Below are positions 19,077-37,196 of a stretch of DNA of 64,000 nt, piece by piece. The notes below the pieces were generated by a model. It ran no database searches and had not been told where the DNA came from. It saw only the letters and a list, made by a program, of their open reading frames with translations. The translations under genes and the position numbers were made by a program. The number at the start of each line of letters is the position of its first letter. Position 1 is the first letter of the stretch. This DNA is from an uncultured Marinicella sp. (GTDB lineage Bacteria; Pseudomonadota; Gammaproteobacteria; Xanthomonadales; Marinicellaceae): assembly GCA_947502595.1 (NCBI GenBank), contig CANNAM010000001.1:124001-188000 (forward strand). The letters are read 5' to 3'.

Positions 19077-19907
19077 TCAATCAAAACCATTTTTGAAAAT
19101 CAAATCATTTTCATGGATCATCAAAGAAGTGATTTTTAGCGGATTCTCAGATTCGCCAAAGCTTAAGATGGTGTAAAACCAGCGCCATGTGCGGTTCTGA
19201 GGAGAGTAGTTAAGTATCCAATGGTTGTCGTAATTGAATTCATCCTTATAAACCCCGTCATCTGCTAGGCTGATGCCATACTCGCCAGTGGTCATCATAC
19301 TGATGGCGTTGATGTTTTTATATGCACCTATGCCATCAATAGTTGAGGTTGAATCATACTCTAAACTGAACACACTGCCATCATAACGTACCAGATCTGC
19401 AGCAACTACGGAAATAGAACCCACAGTGGCCGGACCATCAGTAGAGAAAATCAAGTCACCATTTTCAGCGTCAATGGTAAAGGCATTGATGTTGATGTTG
19501 CCAAAACCCTGAGTCACCGCATCAAAATAGAAACTAAAAGTGCTACAACTAAAATTGCTACAACGAATAATATCTGATTTCATAATACCGAAGCCATTGA
19601 TAGTGGTATCATTATCAAAAGAAAAATATTGAAATCCACCACTGTCTCGATGGTAACCATCTACTAAAGCACCTTTAACATCCCTGATTAACGAGGGCGT
19701 TAATGTAGCTGATGGCGCACTACCATCGACAAAATCTCTGACAACAGTATTACCGTACACATGAATATTATCTACGTTGATATAATCAATATTAGTTGAG
19801 TATTCAACCTCATCAACATAAAAAGGTATGGCTTGTCCATGAACATTTAGCACTGTGAATAGCAACATTAATATGACACTATATTTGGGTAAAGTCTGAA
19901 TATACAT
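19077..19907 (-). CDS. secreted protein with GFE-type C-terminal tail (unrecognised family)
   Basis: 276 aa from the ATG at 19907, which has an AGGAG site 7 bases upstream; a longer reading from 19949 overlaps the neighbouring gene and is rejected. Residues 1-25 look like a cleavable signal peptide ending near NVHGQA. The body holds two or three diverged repeats of about 45-50 residues with a pattern like INAFTIDAENGDLIFSTDG then ADLVRYDGS. I recall this repeat from other secreted bacterial proteins but cannot name it. The last residues, DLIFKNGFD, match the tails of two other secreted proteins in this window. It follows 19925-20620 by 17 bases, so the two are probably one operon. Confidence 0.75.
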   Translation of the reverse strand: MYIQTLPKYSVILMLLFTVLNVHGQAIPFYVDEVEYSTNIDYINVDNIHVYGNTVVRDFVDGSAPSATLTPSLIRDVKGALVDGYHRDSGGFQYFSFDNDTTINGFGIMKSDIIRCSNFSCSTFSFYFDAVTQGFGNININAFTIDAENGDLIFSTDGPATVGSISVVAADLVRYDGSVFSLEYDSTSTIDGIGAYKNINAISMMTTGEYGISLADDGVYKDEFNYDNHWILNYSPQNRTWRWFYTILSFGESENPLKITSLMIHENDLIFKNGFD

Positions 19908-19924
19908 CAGAATTCTCCTGTTAA

Positions 19925-20620
19925 TTATGGACATAATGAGCCACCACACACACTGTCGTTGGTGTATATGCCACAGCTGTTGCTGCCGTTATCAGTCAGG
20001 TAAACATTACTGCAGACCACTGCGACTATGCCGTTGCCTCTGTTGCCTCTGGCGTAGGAGTCTTTAACAAATAAATTACTGAAAATACCGTTACTGATGC
20101 CGGTGTTAAAGTTTCTGTTGGCCACACAATGACTGACCATGCCATTGATAACGGATATACCAAATTCATTTTCAGTGCTTTGGATGCTTTCAACCACATT
20201 GCCTCTGGAGCTTGATGAGGTCAAACTCACGCCAGTATCAAAGCCTTTGACGATGCCATTTTTTACTTTGATGTTATTCCTGCCCACTGCCGTAATGCCA
20301 TGCGCTGTCATGCCTGAATTGGTACAGACTAAAGTGCCGTTATCACCGGTGCAAGTTCTGGGTCCAATGATGGAAAAGCCATTCAAATCTAGCGTGACAT
20401 TGTTGCTGTTGATTTGAATCACACTGGTAGTGGTTGATGTTGAGACCATGTTGGAGGTGAGTTGGTAACTGCCTGGTTGGGTGATGGTTACTGGAAAACC
20501 GCCAGTATCTCCTGGAAAACAACCAAAACCATCACATACATCATTGATGGCGAACACGCCGTCAGCTGCCAATGCGTTACCAAACACCATTGTTGAACAT
20601 AAAATAATCATTTTTTTCAT
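19925..20620 (-). CDS. secreted right-handed beta-helix repeat protein
   Basis: 231 aa from the ATG at 20620, which follows AGGAG with an 8-base spacer; the frame is open to 20689 but that start has no support. It has a signal peptide of about 18 residues (MKKMIILCSTMVFGNALA). The rest has the parallel beta-helix pattern NNVTLDLNGFSIIGP followed by repeated short turns with Gly, Asn and hydrophobic ladders (NNIKVKNGIVKGFDTGVSL). Several Cys residues (CDGFGC, CTGD, CSNVYL, CGIY, CGGSLC) suggest disulfides outside the cytoplasm. Unlike three other secreted proteins nearby it lacks the GFE-type tail. Binding or enzymatic activity cannot be inferred. Confidence 0.75.
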   Translation of the reverse strand: MKKMIILCSTMVFGNALAADGVFAINDVCDGFGCFPGDTGGFPVTITQPGSYQLTSNMVSTSTTTSVIQINSNNVTLDLNGFSIIGPRTCTGDNGTLVCTNSGMTAHGITAVGRNNIKVKNGIVKGFDTGVSLTSSSSRGNVVESIQSTENEFGISVINGMVSHCVANRNFNTGISNGIFSNLFVKDSYARGNRGNGIVAVVCSNVYLTDNGSNSCGIYTNDSVCGGSLCP

Positions 20621-20799: not shown

Positions 20800-21759
20800 T
20801 TATCGTATAAAACGATCTGTGGCCTTTACCAGCTCACTGGCTATGGCAGGTTCAAAAGCTGAATGGCCGGCATCAGGAACCACAACCAGCTCGGCTTCAG
20901 GGAAAACCTGGTGCAAATCAAAAGCTGTTTGCATGGGGCAAACCACATCGTAGCGGCCTTGGATGATAATGGTAGGAATGTGGCGGATTTTGTCAATGTC
21001 ATCCAACAGCTGATTTTCATGAGTGAAAAAACCATCATTCATGAAGTAATGGTTCTCAATGCGAGCAAAAGCCAAGGCGAATTCAGGGTCAGCAGTGTCT
21101 TCAATGTGTTGTAAGTCCGGGTAAAGGTGACAGGTGGAACCTTCCCACACCGACCAACGCTCAGCAGCGGCTAATTGCACCTCTTTATCATCAGATAACA
21201 GGCGCCGCTGATAAGCCGCCATCATGTCATGGCGTTCATCGACTGGAATGTGTTCAAGGTATGCTTGCCAAGCATCGGGAAATATGCGACTGGCACCTGC
21301 TTGGTAAAACCATTGAAGCTCTTGTTTGCGCAGCAAGAAAATTCCCCTGAGCACCAGTTCAGACACCCGCTGAGGATGTTTTTCTGCATAGGCCAAAGCC
21401 AAGGTGCTGCCCCATGAACCGCCGAAAACTTGCCATTGTTCAATACCCAGCATCTCACGGATGGTTTCCATGTCAGAGGTTAAGTCCCAAGTGGTGTTGT
21501 CTTCAAGGCAGGCATGTGGTGTGCTGTTGCCACAACCACGTTGATCAAACTGAATGATGTGGTATTTGTCAGGGTTGAAAAATCTGCGGGTTTGCGCAGA
21601 AGTGCCACCGCCAGGTCCACCATGTACAAAAATCACTGGTTTGCCGTTGGGGTTGCCACTGCTTTCCCAATAGACTTGATGGGTCTGAGTGACTTGAAGG
21701 TGGCCAGATTTAAGCACCTCGGCGGCGGGGTAAAGTGGGTTCAATGCTTTGTTTGACAT
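20800..21759 (-). CDS. pip: proline iminopeptidase
   Basis: 319 aa. This alpha/beta-hydrolase removes N-terminal proline from peptides in the cytoplasm. The oxyanion-hole motif HGGPGGG (46-52), nucleophile elbow GGSWGS (Ser115), acid GRYDVVCP and final His in DAGHSAFEP are all present, as is the PIP-typical FDQRGCGNSTPH. The start is placed at ATG 21759 by comparison with remembered family N-termini (LNPLYPAAE close to the start); an in-frame ATG at 21783 would add 8 residues. It is divergent from the transporter-pxpABC operon with about 100 bp between the starts. Confidence 0.93.
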   Translation of the reverse strand: MSNKALNPLYPAAEVLKSGHLQVTQTHQVYWESSGNPNGKPVIFVHGGPGGGTSAQTRRFFNPDKYHIIQFDQRGCGNSTPHACLEDNTTWDLTSDMETIREMLGIEQWQVFGGSWGSTLALAYAEKHPQRVSELVLRGIFLLRKQELQWFYQAGASRIFPDAWQAYLEHIPVDERHDMMAAYQRRLLSDDKEVQLAAAERWSVWEGSTCHLYPDLQHIEDTADPEFALAFARIENHYFMNDGFFTHENQLLDDIDKIRHIPTIIIQGRYDVVCPMQTAFDLHQVFPEAELVVVPDAGHSAFEPAIASELVKATDRFIR

Positions 21760-21857
21760 GTTGAGTTCAATTGCTGGGGGCATTTATTATGATTTTTTTT
21801 ATCCCCACATTCAAGCCAGCTCAGTTAAAATCATTGCAGTATGTTTCAGGAGCAATG

Positions 21858-23060
21858 ATGGCGAACAAATTTTCAATAGGTCCTGCCACTTTGGTGGCTG
21901 CGGCTTTTATTGGACCAGGCACAGTGACCACTTGCACACTGGCTGGGGCCAATTTTGGCTACGCCTTGATTTGGGCGCTGGTGTTTTCCGTGCTGGCTTG
22001 TATGTTGTTGCAGGAAATGTCGGCACGTTTGGGCGTGGTGACACAACAGGGTTTGGGCGAGGTTTTACAAACTCAGTTTAAACACCCGTTACTCAATACC
22101 GCAGTGTTTGCATTGGTGGCGGTGGCCATATTTATTGGCAACAGTGCCTATGAAGGTGGCAACATTGCTGGTGCTGCGTTGGGCTTGGCGGCCATTTTTC
22201 CGGAATTAAATTTTCCATGGCCGGTGTTGATTGTGGCATTGGCTTTTGTGGTGTTGGTACAAGGCAGTTATCAAGTGCTAGAAAAGGCATTGATTGGTTT
22301 GGTGTTGTTGATGAGTTTGGCCTTTGTCAGTACTTTTATCATGACCAAGCCAAATTTGGGTGATTTGTTTGCTGGTTTAACCCCTCAAGTACCTGATGGC
22401 GCCTGGTTAACAGTGATGGCATTGGTTGGAACCACAGTGGTGCCTTATAATTTGTTTTTACATGCCTCAGCGGTTAAAAACAAATGGCATGAAGCTGCTG
22501 ATCTGCCGCAGGTCAGGAAAGACACGGTGATTTCTATTGGTGTGGGTGGCTTGATATCTTTGGCGATTATTTCAACCGCTGCCGCAGCTTTTTTTGGCCA
22601 ACAAGTCAGCATCAATTCAGCCGCTGACATGTCGGTTCAGCTTGAACCTTTATTGGGTTCTTGGGCTTCGGTATCTATGGGCATGGGTTTATTCGCTGCC
22701 GGTATTTCATCATGCATCACGGCGCCATTGGCAGCTGCTTATGCAGTGGCAGGCATGTTGGGCTGGTCCACTACTGGCAAAGACTTGAAATTCAAAGCAG
22801 TGTGGGCGGTGGTGTTATTCAGTGGCTTGGCTTTTTCATTGTCAGGCTATAAACCCATCACCATCATTTGGTTTGCGCAAATTGCCAACGGTATTTTATT
22901 GCCTTTACTGGCGGCATTTTTGCTGTATGTGATGAACAGGTCTGATTTATTGGGTGCGTATAAAAACACGTGGTTACATAACCTGTTGGGTGCAGTGGTG
23001 ATTATATTGTCTATGTTTTTGGGGGGCAAATCGCTGTATTTTGCCTTTACATCAACATGA
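21858..23060 (+). CDS. Nramp-fold transporter lacking canonical metal ligands
   Basis: 400 aa, about 11 membrane spans. It aligns with Nramp/MntH in TM1 (AAFIGPGTVTTCTLAGANFG, 15-34) and TM6 (GTTVVPYNLFLHAS). Classical Nramp transporters bind Mn/Fe with Asp and Asn of DPGN in TM1 and Met of the TM6 MPHN motif. Here these are GPGT (19-22) and VVPYN (194-198), so all three side chains are missing. The gene overlaps pxpA by four bases (ATGA) and leads the 5-oxoprolinase genes; B. subtilis ycsG, another Nramp-like gene, sits next to its pxpA (ycsF). The start at 21858 has AGGAG five bases upstream; an adjacent ATG at 21855 and a far upstream frame from 21771 are less likely. Confidence 0.85.
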   Translation: MANKFSIGPATLVAAAFIGPGTVTTCTLAGANFGYALIWALVFSVLACMLLQEMSARLGVVTQQGLGEVLQTQFKHPLLNTAVFALVAVAIFIGNSAYEGGNIAGAALGLAAIFPELNFPWPVLIVALAFVVLVQGSYQVLEKALIGLVLLMSLAFVSTFIMTKPNLGDLFAGLTPQVPDGAWLTVMALVGTTVVPYNLFLHASAVKNKWHEAADLPQVRKDTVISIGVGGLISLAIISTAAAAFFGQQVSINSAADMSVQLEPLLGSWASVSMGMGLFAAGISSCITAPLAAAYAVAGMLGWSTTGKDLKFKAVWAVVLFSGLAFSLSGYKPITIIWFAQIANGILLPLLAAFLLYVMNRSDLLGAYKNTWLHNLLGAVVIILSMFLGGKSLYFAFTST

Positions 23061-23845
23061 CTCAGTGGCAAACAATAGACCTGAACTGTGACTTGGGTGA
23101 GTACGATGATTTGACTCAGGGAGAAAACGATGCCCAAATTATGCCGTTAATCAGTTCTTGTAACATTGCTTGTGGCGGCCATGCGGGTAACCAGCAGGTG
23201 ATAGAGCGCAGCATTGCACTGGCGATGGCGCATGCGGTTAAAATCGGTGCTCACCCATCTTATCCGGACAGGACACACTTCGGTCGAAAGGTGATGCATT
23301 TACCTGCCAATGAGTTGCGAGTGGTGGTGCGTGAGCAGATCGCTGTACTCATTGCCGCAGCCCTAGACCAAGGTGTCCATGTGGCCCATGTTAAGCCACA
23401 TGGCGCATTATACAACCAAGCCGCCTTGGACTTGAATTTGGCCTTATTGTTGGCTGAAACCATCGGAAGTTTCGAGCAAAACCTGTTATTTTATGGTCTG
23501 GCGCACTCTGCCATGGGTCAGGCAGCTGAACAAGTTGGCGTGCCTTTTGTGGCTGAGGGGTTCGCTGATCGGGCCTACACAGTTAACCGAACATTACAGC
23601 CTCGCAGCGAACCGGGAGCCGTCATTGCCAGCGCTGAAGCGATGTTGCAACGGGTGATTAAACTTCTACAGACGGGACAGATGACGGCAGTTTCTGGTCA
23701 AAGTATTGAACTACAGATTGACACTTTGTGTTTACATGGCGACCACAAGGACGCTGTGCAGGCGGCCAAAACCTTGCATCAGGGCTTGTTGGCAGCTGGC
23801 TATGATATAAAAGCGCCCGTCTGTTCAGAGCACCGTCATGGGTGA
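23057..23845 (+). CDS. pxpA: 5-oxoprolinase subunit A (LamB/YcsF family)
   Basis: 262 aa. It has the family opening DLNCDLGE (8-15), then SSCNIACGGHAGN (33-45) and AHPSYPDR, and HVKPHGALYNQ in the middle. PxpA works with PxpB and PxpC to hydrolyse 5-oxoproline (pyroglutamate) to glutamate using ATP. Length is normal (about 250 aa). It is translationally overlapped on both sides: 4 bases with the transporter gene and 8 bases with pxpB, which supports one operon. Confidence 0.95.
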   Translation: MTQWQTIDLNCDLGEYDDLTQGENDAQIMPLISSCNIACGGHAGNQQVIERSIALAMAHAVKIGAHPSYPDRTHFGRKVMHLPANELRVVVREQIAVLIAAALDQGVHVAHVKPHGALYNQAALDLNLALLLAETIGSFEQNLLFYGLAHSAMGQAAEQVGVPFVAEGFADRAYTVNRTLQPRSEPGAVIASAEAMLQRVIKLLQTGQMTAVSGQSIELQIDTLCLHGDHKDAVQAAKTLHQGLLAAGYDIKAPVCSEHRHG

Positions 23846-24545
23846 GTTGCAGATCGACCACATCTTGCCGAATGGTGACTGCGGTTTATTGCTTCGATTT
23901 GCGGATACTGAACATCGATTGGCAGCCATTCACAGTTTAGCCGCTGACATGTTACGTTCGCCTTTGGCTGCAATGACCAATGTGATACCTGCTACCGACA
24001 GTTTGGTGTTGGTTTTTTCAAAGCCAGTCGACTTTACCTCGGGTTTAATCGATGAAATAAAGTTTCGAGTTGAGCAGCTAACCATTGGCCAAGGTCTGGT
24101 GCAGACCCATGAAATTCCAGTGTGCTATGCAGCTTCGCTGGCCAATGATTTAGAGGCTGTTTGCGCTGAGTTACAATGTTCACAGCAGCAATTGATTGAG
24201 CGCCATACAAATTCGGTTTACCGTGTAGATATGTTGGGATTCTTACCGGGGTTTGCCTATTTGTCTGGTAACCACCCGGCCATGCAGTTACCACGTAAAG
24301 CCACGCCCAGTTTACAAGTTGCCCAAGGCAGCATTGCCATTGCAGGGCAACAAACAGGTATATATTCATTGGCCAGTCCTGGTGGTTGGCATGTGATCGG
24401 GCGCACGCCAATTGCCTTGCTAGACTGGCAAAATAACAGCCAACCGATGTTGTTAAAACCGATGGATAAAGTCACTTTTATACCTATTAGCCTGACTGAA
24501 TTTCATGCCATGGAAGCAGCCGAGGAATCAACCAATGGGCATTGA
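23838..24545 (+). CDS. pxpB: 5-oxoprolinase subunit B (KipI-like)
   Basis: 235 aa. It has the carboxyltransferase subunit C/D (AHS1) pattern: GDCGLLLRF near the N-terminus, VCYAA in the centre, MLGFLPGFAYLSG (about 134-146), PRKATPSLQVAQGSIAIAG and SPGGWHVIGRTP near the end. Together with PxpC it forms the module that pairs with PxpA for ATP-dependent 5-oxoproline hydrolysis; in B. subtilis the homologue KipI also inhibits sporulation kinase KinA. It overlaps pxpA by 8 bases and pxpC by 11 bases. Confidence 0.93.
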   Translation: MGELQIDHILPNGDCGLLLRFADTEHRLAAIHSLAADMLRSPLAAMTNVIPATDSLVLVFSKPVDFTSGLIDEIKFRVEQLTIGQGLVQTHEIPVCYAASLANDLEAVCAELQCSQQQLIERHTNSVYRVDMLGFLPGFAYLSGNHPAMQLPRKATPSLQVAQGSIAIAGQQTGIYSLASPGGWHVIGRTPIALLDWQNNSQPMLLKPMDKVTFIPISLTEFHAMEAAEESTNGH

Positions 24546-25440
24546 AGTCTTACAAGCGGGTACATTCACCACAGTACAAGACAAGGGGCGTTATGGTTGG
24601 GCACATTTGGGGGTGCCAGTGGCAGGGTGTATGGACCAGCAGTCAGCGCAGTTGGCCAATTGGATGGTGGGCAATCAACCCACTTCGGCGGTGTTAGAGA
24701 TGACTTGGACTGGTATGGAATTCACCTGCCAAGTGGACTGTTCAATGGCGCTGGCAGGTGCGGAATTTGAGTGCAGTCTGAATGGCCGTATTATCAACAC
24801 CGACCAAGTCATCAATTTGCGCATTGGTGATCATTTTAAAATGCATCGTTTGCTGCAAGGTGTCAGGGCTTATTTGGCTTTCGCCGGTGGTTTTGATTTA
24901 ACTGCAGTTGGTGGTAGTTACAGTACCTTGGTAGTGGCTGGCTTGGGAGGTTATGCTGGCCGGAGTTTACAAGCAGGTGATGTCTTGCGCTTAAAACAAC
25001 CGACCACAGTGGCCAGCAAAACCAAACCACAGTGGAAAAAATTAAAGCGCCAATCGATTCATGTCATCAGGGCGATGCCAGGGCCTGAATACGACTGTTT
25101 TACCCCAGCTGTTATTAGGCAGGCATTTGGCCAAGCCTATCAATTATCCAGTGCTGCAAATCGACAAGGATTCAGGTTGATTGCTGCGGCCATTGAAACC
25201 CCTAAAGGTTTTCATATGAACAGTTCTGGCTTGGTGCCGGGCAGTTTGCAAGTGACACCTGATGGGCAAACTATTTTGGCCATGCAAGATGCGCAAACCA
25301 CGGGTGGTTACCCCCGAATATTGGTTGTTGATCAGTCCCAAATCCATCAGTTGGCTCAGATTCGAACTGATGAGGACGTTTATTTTTATGTAGGGCATGA
25401 TCAACGCAAAGTGGTCAAATTAGCAGCGAATTACCAGTGA
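24535..25440 (+). CDS. pxpC: 5-oxoprolinase subunit C (KipA-like, biotin-dependent carboxyltransferase family)
   Basis: 301 aa. AHS2 domain: GTFTTVQDKGRYGWAHLG at the N-terminus, then GVPVAGCMDQQSAQLAN, AYLAFAGGFDL in the middle, and MNSSGLVPGSLQVTPDGQ with TTGGYPRI at the end. This is the third subunit of prokaryotic 5-oxoprolinase. The start is the ATG at 24535, eight bases after GAGGA; a longer frame from 24505 would lie deep inside pxpB. It is the last gene of the operon; 121 bp later a secreted-protein gene begins on the same strand. Confidence 0.94.
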   Translation: MGIEVLQAGTFTTVQDKGRYGWAHLGVPVAGCMDQQSAQLANWMVGNQPTSAVLEMTWTGMEFTCQVDCSMALAGAEFECSLNGRIINTDQVINLRIGDHFKMHRLLQGVRAYLAFAGGFDLTAVGGSYSTLVVAGLGGYAGRSLQAGDVLRLKQPTTVASKTKPQWKKLKRQSIHVIRAMPGPEYDCFTPAVIRQAFGQAYQLSSAANRQGFRLIAAAIETPKGFHMNSSGLVPGSLQVTPDGQTILAMQDAQTTGGYPRILVVDQSQIHQLAQIRTDEDVYFYVGHDQRKVVKLAANYQ

Positions 25441-25585
25441 TGTAGCAGTTTTCAAGTAAATTTCAGGATAATTTCAGGTGTTTTTCAGACATCATTTTCA
25501 CCCGCTTCGTAAAATTTCACTCAAGTATTCAACCAGCAAAAGCTGAGCAGTTGAATGAGTTTTGAATAATCAGAGGAGTAAAGTT

Positions 25586-27298
25586 TTGCACACAACAAAT
25601 CAAAAAACCATGCACCAGAATCAATTGAGGTCAGTAAAAGTATTCAGTACCATGTTGCTGTTAGCGGCCATTGGTTTTCAAGTTCAAGCAGCCACCACCA
25701 TCACAGTTGATTGGGCCTTGGATGAAGAACCCAACCACAACAACCACACCTGTACTTACACCCAAGGTGGATTATTTTTTCCTGACACCACCGGCACAGG
25801 AGCTGGCAAGTGCACATTAAGACGCGCTTTGCGAGAAGCGGGCGCACGACCGTTGGTAGACCGCCCCATTAATATTGTCTTCACAGGGTTGAACGGCACT
25901 GATGGTGATGCCGATGACACACAGTTCAGCTCAGGGCAGTGGGTGTTGCCGATTGCAGCTGGTGCCAGCACCAGTAAATTTGGTTTATACCCGCAATCAA
26001 TCACTGATGTCACCGGCCAGGTGAACATCATCGGTTTTCCAGTTGATGTTCAAGGCAACAATGAAATGCCGAAGATTATGGTCGACAGCGGTAAAACACT
26101 GGAGATTGAATTGAATGATGTGACAATTCAAGCAATGGGCTTTTATGGTGGTATGAGTATCCACGCCAAAGAAGCAGGCTTTACTTTCCAAAACAACACT
26201 TGGGGCTTGGCCGCAGACGGGCTGGATATGGTATTTGGTGACTTGCTTGGTAACACCGATAATTTGGCTGGTAGTCACGGTGTATTGGGGTTGGCCAAAG
26301 CCGATGATATGTTGGTGCAAAACAACATCATCACTGGTGCATCAACCTACGCAGTGGAAGTCAACTCAGCGACTGAAGGGGTGCAAGTTTTGAATAATTG
26401 GATAGGCACCAACATCAATGGCTCAGTGCCCACTGTACCTGTTCATTTGGTTTGTCGAACGTTCACCAACATCAACCCAGTGTCACCGCCTTTGCAGGCA
26501 GGTGAGTGGTTTGGAGGTGCTGGTATTTCTGCTGCTGGAACTGGATTGTTGATTGAAGGTAATTACATTGCAGGCTTGCAAAATATTCGCAGCACCAACG
26601 ACACACCGCCCGAAGCTTTAACCGTATTTGGCTCTTTGCATACCATTGAAAATAATGTCATTGGCCAAAGTGTTGATGGTCAATCTATTGGTGTTTGCGG
26701 GCAAGGCATCAAGTTTTCGACCCAAACCGATGTGATTACCCCGGTTAACAATGGCCATTTGGTGTTGAATAACCTCATTGATTCTTCACGCAACGGTTTT
26801 GAAAACACCAAAGGTGCGATATTGTGGAGTGATACCAGCAGCCCTGCATTTCGTGACAGTGGCAATACAGTGCGTGGTAACCTGGTCATTGATGGCCCGG
26901 AAAAATACTTTGAGATGGGCCCGATGATTGCCTCAGCAATTCGCTTGTTTGAACCGGCTGAAATCACCAGCGTGGAGGGTACTTTGGTTGCTGGCAGAAG
27001 TCACACCGGAAACATCATGGGCGACCCCAGTCCTTGTCCTAACTGCATAATTGATTTTTATTTAGATGATACCGATGGCAGTGAAGAAGCTTTCGTGCAC
27101 TTAGGTTCGACAGTGGCCGATGGCAACGGTGATTTTTCTTTCAATATGACAGCACCATTGCCCAACGGTTACGGCATCAGAACCACCAGCACCAGCCAAG
27201 CCAATGATGTGATTCCCAATACATGGGCTGGCACCACATCAACCCTGTCTAATGAACTGTACGGCTCGGATGTGATTTTTAAAGATGGTTTTGAGTAA
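25586..27298 (+). CDS. large secreted CSLREA/beta-helix protein with GFE-type C-terminal tail
   Basis: 570 aa. The start is set at TTG 25586, seven bases after a strong AGGAG; the ATG at 25610 is the alternative and gives a cleaner signal peptide (hydrophobic stretch STMLLLAAIGFQVQA). The N-terminal part has CTLRRALREAG, a CSLREA-type motif common at the start of secreted beta-helix proteins. The middle (about 150-450) shows right-handed beta-helix turns (VQNNIITGASTYAVEV, VLNNWIGTN). The C-terminal 100 residues resemble an Ig-like/Big-type fold (IDFYLDDTDGSEEAFVHLGS). It ends with DVIFKDGFE, the tail shared with two other secreted proteins here. Adhesion or polysaccharide binding is possible; activity is unknown. 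Confidence 0.8.
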   Translation: MHTTNQKTMHQNQLRSVKVFSTMLLLAAIGFQVQAATTITVDWALDEEPNHNNHTCTYTQGGLFFPDTTGTGAGKCTLRRALREAGARPLVDRPINIVFTGLNGTDGDADDTQFSSGQWVLPIAAGASTSKFGLYPQSITDVTGQVNIIGFPVDVQGNNEMPKIMVDSGKTLEIELNDVTIQAMGFYGGMSIHAKEAGFTFQNNTWGLAADGLDMVFGDLLGNTDNLAGSHGVLGLAKADDMLVQNNIITGASTYAVEVNSATEGVQVLNNWIGTNINGSVPTVPVHLVCRTFTNINPVSPPLQAGEWFGGAGISAAGTGLLIEGNYIAGLQNIRSTNDTPPEALTVFGSLHTIENNVIGQSVDGQSIGVCGQGIKFSTQTDVITPVNNGHLVLNNLIDSSRNGFENTKGAILWSDTSSPAFRDSGNTVRGNLVIDGPEKYFEMGPMIASAIRLFEPAEITSVEGTLVAGRSHTGNIMGDPSPCPNCIIDFYLDDTDGSEEAFVHLGSTVADGNGDFSFNMTAPLPNGYGIRTTSTSQANDVIPNTWAGTTSTLSNELYGSDVIFKDGFE

Positions 27299-35681: not shown

Positions 35682-36980
35682 TTAATTGCTTGGTATTTCA
35701 AATCCATCACTGAATATCAAATCTACAATCAGCTGAAATTCAACTGCACCAATGTCACAGCCGCTTACCGTATCGCCATCGCCATCGTTACCACGTGTAT
35801 GACCAGTTTGATCAACTGCTGTTGCGCAGTTTGCAGGGGCGATGGCGTCTATGGCTGGGCTGCCTTCAGCTAAATTATGAGTGGGTGTTGCGCCTCCATT
35901 GTCGGCCAATGTTGTGTCAATGATGTCACTGAGGTTAGGTTCAGCAGGCACCGTATCAGTTGCGCCTAGGGTCACTCCTGATGAGCCGTTGTTGTTGTTA
36001 AAGCCAATGAGGTTGTAATCATTCAAAGTAATGGAGCCTCCCGTAGACAAAATTTCATTGCCATTTAATGTGGCATTGTTGCCAGCAATGAGACTTTGAC
36101 TGATGATGAAGTCAGCTGAGTCATTGTATATGCCGCCTCCTTCGCCACCACTTTGGTTGTTTATCAGGGTGCTGTTTTGAATGGTGATCAGGGAGCTGGT
36201 GGGTGTGGCTGAGACATAATGTATGATCCCAGCGCCATCATATGTGGTTGCATTGTTTGAAATGGTGGAGTTAATTATCGATAAATTCAGCGGTCCACCA
36301 TAATCTGATGCATAGATGCCGGCACCACCAAGGCCGGAATTTGAGGTGTTGTTAGTGATCGTGCTTTGCTGAATGGTCAGCGTTCCACTGGCAATGGATA
36401 ATGCGCCGCCATAGTATGTTCCACCTGGTGAGCTCTGGTTGTCACTGATGATGGTGCGGTTAATTACTGAATCAATTGATCCAGATAGGGTGATGGCGCC
36501 ACCCATATTGTTAGTGATGATTGAATCATTCAAGATCAGGGTTGAGTTAATGGCGTTGATTCCACCACCGTAATTGTTCCCTCTGGAACCACCTGTGACA
36601 GTAACGTCATTCAAGACTATAGTTGGTTGGTTGTTTATAGCAGCAAGGCTGCCCAGTTGTATCACTGAAAAATCTGCGGCATTGGCATCACGTACTATGG
36701 TTGAGCCGTGGGCATTGATGGTAACTGAGTTAATGATGGCAGGCATGGGTTCGGTCAACGTGATGGTACTGTTACTGGGCAGTTCAATCACATCAACACC
36801 ATTGCCTGCAGCACAACCATTGCCAGCTGTGTCGGTGTTGGCGGCATTGATGGCATTGGCCAAGGTGCAATTTACATTATCCACTGTGATGGTCGCAGCC
36901 TGTGCAGCAGTGGTTAACTCCAATAATAAGGCAGCAGCCAAGGCGGTCTGTTGAAAAGACTGTACCGATATTTTGTTCAT
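35682..36980 (-). CDS. secreted CSLREA/beta-helix protein with GFE-type tail
   Basis: 432 aa. The signal peptide spans about 28 residues (ALAAALLLELTTAAQA), followed by ATITVDNVNCTLANAINAANTD, a CSLREA-type opening. Residues about 110-330 are parallel beta-helix turns of the polymorphic outer-membrane-protein type (GGGIYNDSADFIISQSLIAGN, GGGINAINSTLILNDSII). About 340-410 holds a choice-of-anchor-like segment (LADNGGATPTHNLAEGSPAID, GCDIGAVEFQ). The end is DLIFSDGFE plus four residues (IPSN). The first ATG has a GAGGG ribosome site. It is likely a surface or secreted adhesin-like protein; function is unknown. Confidence 0.82.
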   Translation of the reverse strand: MNKISVQSFQQTALAAALLLELTTAAQAATITVDNVNCTLANAINAANTDTAGNGCAAGNGVDVIELPSNSTITLTEPMPAIINSVTINAHGSTIVRDANAADFSVIQLGSLAAINNQPTIVLNDVTVTGGSRGNNYGGGINAINSTLILNDSIITNNMGGAITLSGSIDSVINRTIISDNQSSPGGTYYGGALSIASGTLTIQQSTITNNTSNSGLGGAGIYASDYGGPLNLSIINSTISNNATTYDGAGIIHYVSATPTSSLITIQNSTLINNQSGGEGGGIYNDSADFIISQSLIAGNNATLNGNEILSTGGSITLNDYNLIGFNNNNGSSGVTLGATDTVPAEPNLSDIIDTTLADNGGATPTHNLAEGSPAIDAIAPANCATAVDQTGHTRGNDGDGDTVSGCDIGAVEFQLIVDLIFSDGFEIPSN

Positions 36981-37196
36981 GTAATCCCTCTTGATTTAAG
37001 TAATGCTGGGTTATTTTTTAGCAGTTTACTATATTTTTAACTTGCTGTGTTTTGTGCGGGTCGCAATTTTAAGCTGTGCAATTAACTGGGTATCTATAGT
37101 TGCTACCTAAGTTTCATGGTTTGCACTTTTTAGTGAAGTTGTTTTCAATTAAACCGAAACAACCTATGATATCAATCAATTGAAAACGAAAAAATT

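Follow-up and report, generated by a model that had tools for sequence, protein, structure and literature searches.

What does a protein with the fold of a metal transporter do at the head of an operon for 5-oxoprolinase? The question is raised by a 64,000-nucleotide stretch of DNA (hereafter, the window) from an uncultured Marinicella sp. (assembly GCA_947502595.1, contig CANNAM010000001.1, positions 124,001 to 188,000), in which the gene for an Nramp-fold protein of 400 amino acids, here termed pxpT-A, lies directly upstream of pxpA, pxpB and pxpC. An initial annotation, made from the sequence alone, had proposed that this protein transports 5-oxoproline or a related amino acid rather than Mn or Fe. 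Our analysis supports that proposal on two counts, the loss of the metal ligands and the linkage to pxp genes. From these we infer both substrate and direction: the window protein is likely a secondary importer of 5-oxoproline (pyroglutamate).

Operon structure

The pxpT-A gene (positions 21858–23060, plus strand, like the rest of the operon; PF01566, 311.6 bits) ends in an ATGA (23057–23060) in which its stop codon overlaps the start codon of pxpA (subunit A, LamB/YcsF; 23057–23845), and pxpB (subunit B; 23838–24545) and pxpC (subunit C; 24535–25440) come next. Given this arrangement, pxpT-A stands first in a pxpT-A-B-C operon, in agreement with the initial annotation. In a profile search, the three downstream genes matched the models for PxpA/LamB_YcsF (NF003814, 268.6 bits with a cut-off of 226; PF03746), PxpB/CT_C_D (PF02682, 179.6 bits; TIGR00370, 145.3 bits, slightly below the cut-off of 145.55) and PxpC/CT_A_B (TIGR00724, 244.8 bits with a cut-off of 230.2; PF02626), so that all three subunits of 5-oxoprolinase (PxpABC) are encoded next to the Nramp gene. 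The open reading frame of pxpC begins at 24505, with 24535 as the likelier start. An AGGAG-like ribosome site precedes the pxpT-A start by 5 nt, and a promoter scan found 7 candidates where 5.6 were expected, close to chance. The window protein is the sole PF01566 protein of its 3.2-Mb genome and is 75–80% identical to its counterparts in named Marinicella.

Loss of the metal site

Judging from an alignment to DraNramp, the three Mn2+ ligands D56, N59 and M230 (DraNramp numbering) correspond to G19, T22 and V195 in the window protein. The unwound motif of transmembrane helix 1 (TM1), DPGN in Nramp, is here G19-P20-G21-T22 (21912–21923, plus strand; AAFIGPGTVTT versus ASIAYMDPGNFATN in DraNramp), and the GATVMPH of TM6 is replaced by G191-T192-T193-V194-V195-P196-Y197-N198 (22428–22451, plus strand; VGTTVVPYNLFLH versus IGATVMPHVIYLH), with A227 exchanged for T192 and the conserved H232 for Y197. 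In TM3, the motif Y98-E99-G100-G101-N102 (22149–22163, plus strand) carries an Asn in place of E134 of the Nramp proton network. Thus, neither the TM1 DPGN nor the TM6 Met and following His that define MntH are present, and the reading of the initial annotation, GPGT for DPGN in TM1, VVPYN for the Met-containing motif in TM6 and all three metal-coordinating side chains missing, holds at every position. G19-P20-G21-T22, N102, T193, V195 and Y197 were identical in all 58 aligned relatives, drawn from five phyla (Gammaproteobacteria, Bacteroidota, Balneolota, an actinobacterium and haloarchaea). This invariance indicates a conserved alternative site rather than decay or chance.

An AlphaFold2 model of the window protein, built with 50 relatives (pLDDT 90.6, pTM 0.90), shows the initially assigned Nramp fold, which is of the LeuT type: as in MntH, TM1 is broken, here at residues 18–19, and TM6 at residues 195–197. 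The model superimposes on DraNramp with Z = 49.3 (root-mean-square deviation of 2.2 Å over 373 residues), on the NRMT magnesium transporter EleNRMT with Z = 46.8, and on amino-acid carriers such as AdiC with Z = 29.5. As modeled, then, the fold is that of Nramp and the site is not.

Place within the Slc11 family

Across 200 Pseudomonadota genomes, PF01566 proteins adjoining pxpABC fell into two groups, clade A, which includes the window protein (TM1 AAFIGPGTVT, TM6 GTTVVPYNLFLH), and clade B (TM1 SAIGPGFxTQT, TM6 GGTVGGYITYAGAHR). In an unrooted tree, clade A (support 98/97) and clade B (100/100, on a long branch) were recovered, with clade A as a single group apart from the metal-transporting MntH and NRMT clades. 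Clade A has the residues that Cellier gives for an 'orphan outgroup' of Slc11 (PMC10606218), namely Gly for Asp and Thr for Asn in helix 1, Tyr and Asn in helix 3, and Thr, Val and Tyr in helix 6: the window protein matches all of them, and no sequence difference from the outgroup was found. Judging from these residues, clade A is the orphan outgroup, which the portion of that account considered here describes as a phylogenetic outgroup only, without analysis of its function or gene neighborhood.

The two characterized groups of metal carriers each resemble the window protein in part. MntH and DraNramp have the same fold and 23–24% identity to it, and public models call them and the window protein alike metal transporters, but they possess the DPGN and MPH metal site, E134 and H232, all of which the window protein lacks. 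The NCBI equivalog model NF037982 accepts the window protein with 109 bits (cut-off 50), which is why clade A proteins are publicly named 'Nramp family divalent metal transporter'. EleNRMT is 25–26% identical and likewise lacks the TM6 Met and His, but NRMT proteins retain an acidic TM1 residue (NDAGG), carry a Trp in TM6 and form a separate clade; both motif and tree therefore rule out an NRMT (Mg2+) identity. More distant Nramp-fold proteins were also seen, among them two on long branches (L057 and L061, TM1 RFGPGALTS and ILGPGSITT) from a gammaproteobacterial genome with several such proteins (G046), and a very distant group (L078–L081) whose motifs resemble AAVGGSHL in TM1 and MGWMPAP in TM6.

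Clade B includes the experimentally studied relatives. A fold search led to B. subtilis YcsG (structure entry 9a52), to which a clade B model is 62% identical and the window model 20%, so that YcsG belongs to clade B and is not an ortholog of the window protein. C. glutamicum PxpT can be placed in the same clade given its published 50% identity to YcsG (PMC13274462). MumT of A. baumannii falls there too, since an A. baumannii Nramp-like protein adjoins pxpA and is 63% identical to clade B, and the MumT study reports a single such gene in its strain (PMC5050338). The chromosome-sized PLSDB records of P. mirabilis and A. baumannii are unannotated at this locus, and their Pxp genes were located with our own hidden Markov models. 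YcsG, PxpT and MumT share with the window protein the Nramp fold, the pxp operon, the absence of metal ligands, and GPG in TM1, Asn in TM3 and Tyr in TM6, but they form a separate clade at 20–25% identity (25% between the window protein and one clade B member) and have GPGFxTQT in TM1 and GGTVGGY in TM6, versus GPGTVT and GTTVVPY. The B. subtilis pairing cited in the initial annotation (ycsG with pxpA) thus stands as an operon arrangement, with YcsG an analog from another Nramp clade. Clades A and B may have a common origin, as their grouping was not rejected (approximately unbiased test, p-AU 0.21). A YcsG-clade transporter gene was also observed on K. pneumoniae plasmid pKpN06-SIL (L174), together with genes for PxpA, a putative hydro-lyase, a urea amidolyase-family (pxpBC-like) protein and biotin carboxylase, and the transporter gene occurs on about 90 Klebsiella plasmids.

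Linkage to 5-oxoprolinase genes

Among 80 clade A loci from named genomes, picked by protein similarity alone, 59 carried pxpABC on the same strand, with all three genes present in 59 of 59 and a distance of ≤271 bp in 58; an OPLAH-type gene was found at 4 and neither enzyme at 17. A second, independent draw from 296 Bacteroidota genomes had pxpA within 1.5 kb of 29 of the 30 closest members. In all, 155 clade A loci were scored (a few duplicates or short flanks included), of which 92 were next to pxpA, 18 next to HyuA/HyuB-type genes and 6 next to 2-oxoacid oxidoreductase genes. None of 45 loci for other Nramp-fold proteins, all covered with wide flanks (Fisher p = 4e-18), and none of 33 canonical MntH loci (p = 1e-11; 30 of the 33 with 1.5-kb flanks only) had pxp genes; since related genomes are counted repeatedly, these p-values overstate independence. 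The enrichment on which the initial annotation had staked its prediction is therefore present (59/80 and 92/155 versus 0/33 for MntH), in lineages that include Flavobacteriaceae, Bacteroidales, Balneolota, Kangiella, Marinicella and a Streptomyces.

For the 17 named loci with neither enzyme we found no common neighbor, the nearest genes encoding MgtE, malic enzyme, BCCT, acyl-CoA dehydrogenase and others. Where clade A carriers lacked an adjacent pxpA, it was present elsewhere in the genome in 18 of 21; HyuB was found in 2 more, and neither in one incomplete metagenome-assembled genome. The base rate of pxpA in other Gammaproteobacteria was 13 of 142 (p about 5e-13, the carriers sharing ancestry). 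Several members of one Bacteroidota subclade with GPGT (L248–L256 and L258; AAFVGPGTVLTC and VVTYNLFLH) adjoin genes for the alpha and beta subunits of 2-oxoacid:ferredoxin oxidoreductase, with no oxoprolinase.

A second, unrelated partner enzyme

The HyuA/HyuB-type proteins beside some clade A genes belong to a non-homologous family that has no domain in common with PxpABC. They occur either as fused OPLAH-type proteins of ~1215 amino acids (L037, L122, L129, L132 and L153) or as separate HyuA and HyuB, the latter on haloarchaeal plasmids and in some Bacteroidota. The 5-oxoprolinases of archaea belong to this type and consist of two subunits (PMC6507225). Among pxp- or hyu-linked loci alone, at least four changes of partner between pxp and hyu were counted on the tree. 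That the transporter was retained while an unrelated enzyme was exchanged points to a substrate common to both partners. The HyuA/HyuB family also contains hydantoinases and caprolactamase, so that the linked Hyu enzyme is a putative 5-oxoprolinase. At one further locus, a gene for a TRAP transporter large permease (L264, 7170–8489, minus strand) directly adjoins the GPGT-clade gene and HyuAB; 5-oxoproline-binding TRAP systems are known in Bordetella, according to work cited in PMC13274462.

New here is the linkage of the orphan clade to pxpABC and HyuA/HyuB-type genes.

A predicted 5-oxoproline importer

Total and invariant loss of the metal ligands, combined with linkage to PxpABC or HyuA/HyuB-type genes across phyla, makes import of 5-oxoproline the best reading of clade A. 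In Slc11 metal carriers, Mn2+ or Fe2+ is held between the Asp–Asn pair of TM1 and the Met of TM6; here, a Gly-Pro-Gly-Thr loop together with Thr, Val and Tyr would leave a neutral pocket at the broken helices. The GxG loop in TM1 of APC amino-acid carriers binds carboxylate, and by this likeness the GPGT loop may bind the carboxylate of 5-oxoproline, and the pocket may be lined by TM6 residues T192/T193 and Y197. The 5-oxoproline anion would probably enter with H+ or Na+ and be opened to glutamate, at the cost of ATP, by PxpABC from the same operon. The sister clade argues in the same direction: all three metal side chains were absent from the clade B sequences examined, and the Gly of TM1, Asn of TM3 and Tyr of TM6 that they have in common with clade A count in favor of 5-oxoproline. 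Niehaus 2017, through later papers, is said to have identified this sister clade as a 5-oxoproline transporter. YcsG and PxpT are both genetically required for 5-oxoproline use, and C. glutamicum PxpT, by clean deletion and complementation, for growth on it (PMC13274462).

Several observations weigh against this assignment. No oxoprolinase gene was found within 2 kb of 39 of the 155 clade A loci, some of them with short flanks. The origin of 5-oxoproline in the Marinicella genome is not obvious, as pyroglutamyl peptidase (I) (PF01470) is absent; plant-type glutaminyl cyclase is absent as well, and we dropped a local pyroglutamyl-peptide route on both grounds. For Bacteroidota, the 'Q-rule' (PMC5837995) is a possible source. 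The remaining points, namely some of the neighboring genes, the distribution of MntH and reports of Mn import by the sister clade, each favor an alternative.

The alternative that survives best, although we regard it as unlikely, is that the protein imports some related compound, either a cyclic amide or an amino acid (hydantoin, proline, glutamine or D-5-oxoproline), with 5-oxoproline one of several substrates or, in some subclades, not a substrate. It draws on the hydantoinases and caprolactamase among HyuA/HyuB-family enzymes and on an Asp/Glu-racemase-family gene that also lies in haloarchaeal clade A operons and hints at hydantoin. The Bacteroidota subclade beside 2-oxoacid:ferredoxin oxidoreductase genes likewise suggests that the substrate may vary. 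In the lineage of the window, however, the gene is paired with PxpABC, which is known to act on 5-oxoproline, and switching between PxpABC and Hyu is most simply explained by a common substrate.

Transport of metal by the window protein is very improbable. Cellular Mn levels and phenotypes, including calprotectin phenotypes, underlie the reports of B. subtilis YcsG ('MntG'; PMC10448178) and A. baumannii MumT (PMC5050338) as Mn importers, effects that we consider probably indirect. The best point for a metal substrate is that canonical MntH is missing from the window genome and from all 28 pxp-linked genomes (G567–G594), most of which have other Nramp-fold proteins. Set against this, in DraNramp the D56A substitution alone ends Mn2+ transport, the mutant moving neither Mn2+ nor Cd2+ (PMC10185341), whereas here all three side-chain ligands are gone and replaced by invariant residues. 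Moreover, the recurring partner genes encode lactam hydrolases, not metal proteins.

Least probable is an exporter or sensor that protects the cell from 5-oxoproline arising spontaneously from glutamine: Nramp-fold domains can signal, as in plant EIN2, but export would waste the substrate of a co-transcribed enzyme. Although 5-oxoproline forms inside all cells, deletion of the sister-clade PxpT ends growth on the external compound (PMC13274462).

Neighboring genes in the window

Divergent from the pxpT operon, and separated from it by ~75 bp, lies a gene for prolyl aminopeptidase (20800–21783, minus strand; TIGR01249, 473 bits), with which the operon is possibly co-regulated for peptide use. 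Several surface-type proteins encoded in the window (19077–19949, minus strand; 25562–27298, plus strand; and an open reading frame at 35685–36995, minus strand) share a tail, LIFKNGFD, VIFKDGFE or LIFSDGFE, at or near their ends, which by its sequence looks like a C-terminal sorting tag.

Implications for the Slc11 family

A 5-oxoproline importer in clade A would sharpen a conflict in the literature over the sister clade of YcsG, PxpT and MumT, which appears there as a 5-oxoproline transporter (Niehaus 2017; Sundermeyer 2026) versus a Mn importer (Ogura 2023; Juttukonda 2016). Tentatively, the GPGT and YcsG clades might both derive from a transporter of 5-oxoproline, a lactam amino acid; Slc11 metal carriers could then have arisen from that stock through a Gly-to-Asp change in TM1 and the gain of the TM6 Met, with the loop that had bound carboxylate becoming a metal site. 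In that case an amino-acid importer would stand at the root of the Nramp family, and YcsG and MumT would have produced their reported effects on Mn by an indirect route. A substrate for the Slc11 outgroup, if true, would correct the naming of these proteins as metal transporters in public records, and the reading of clade A as a 5-oxoproline importer offers a concrete hypothesis for the origin of Nramp metal selectivity.

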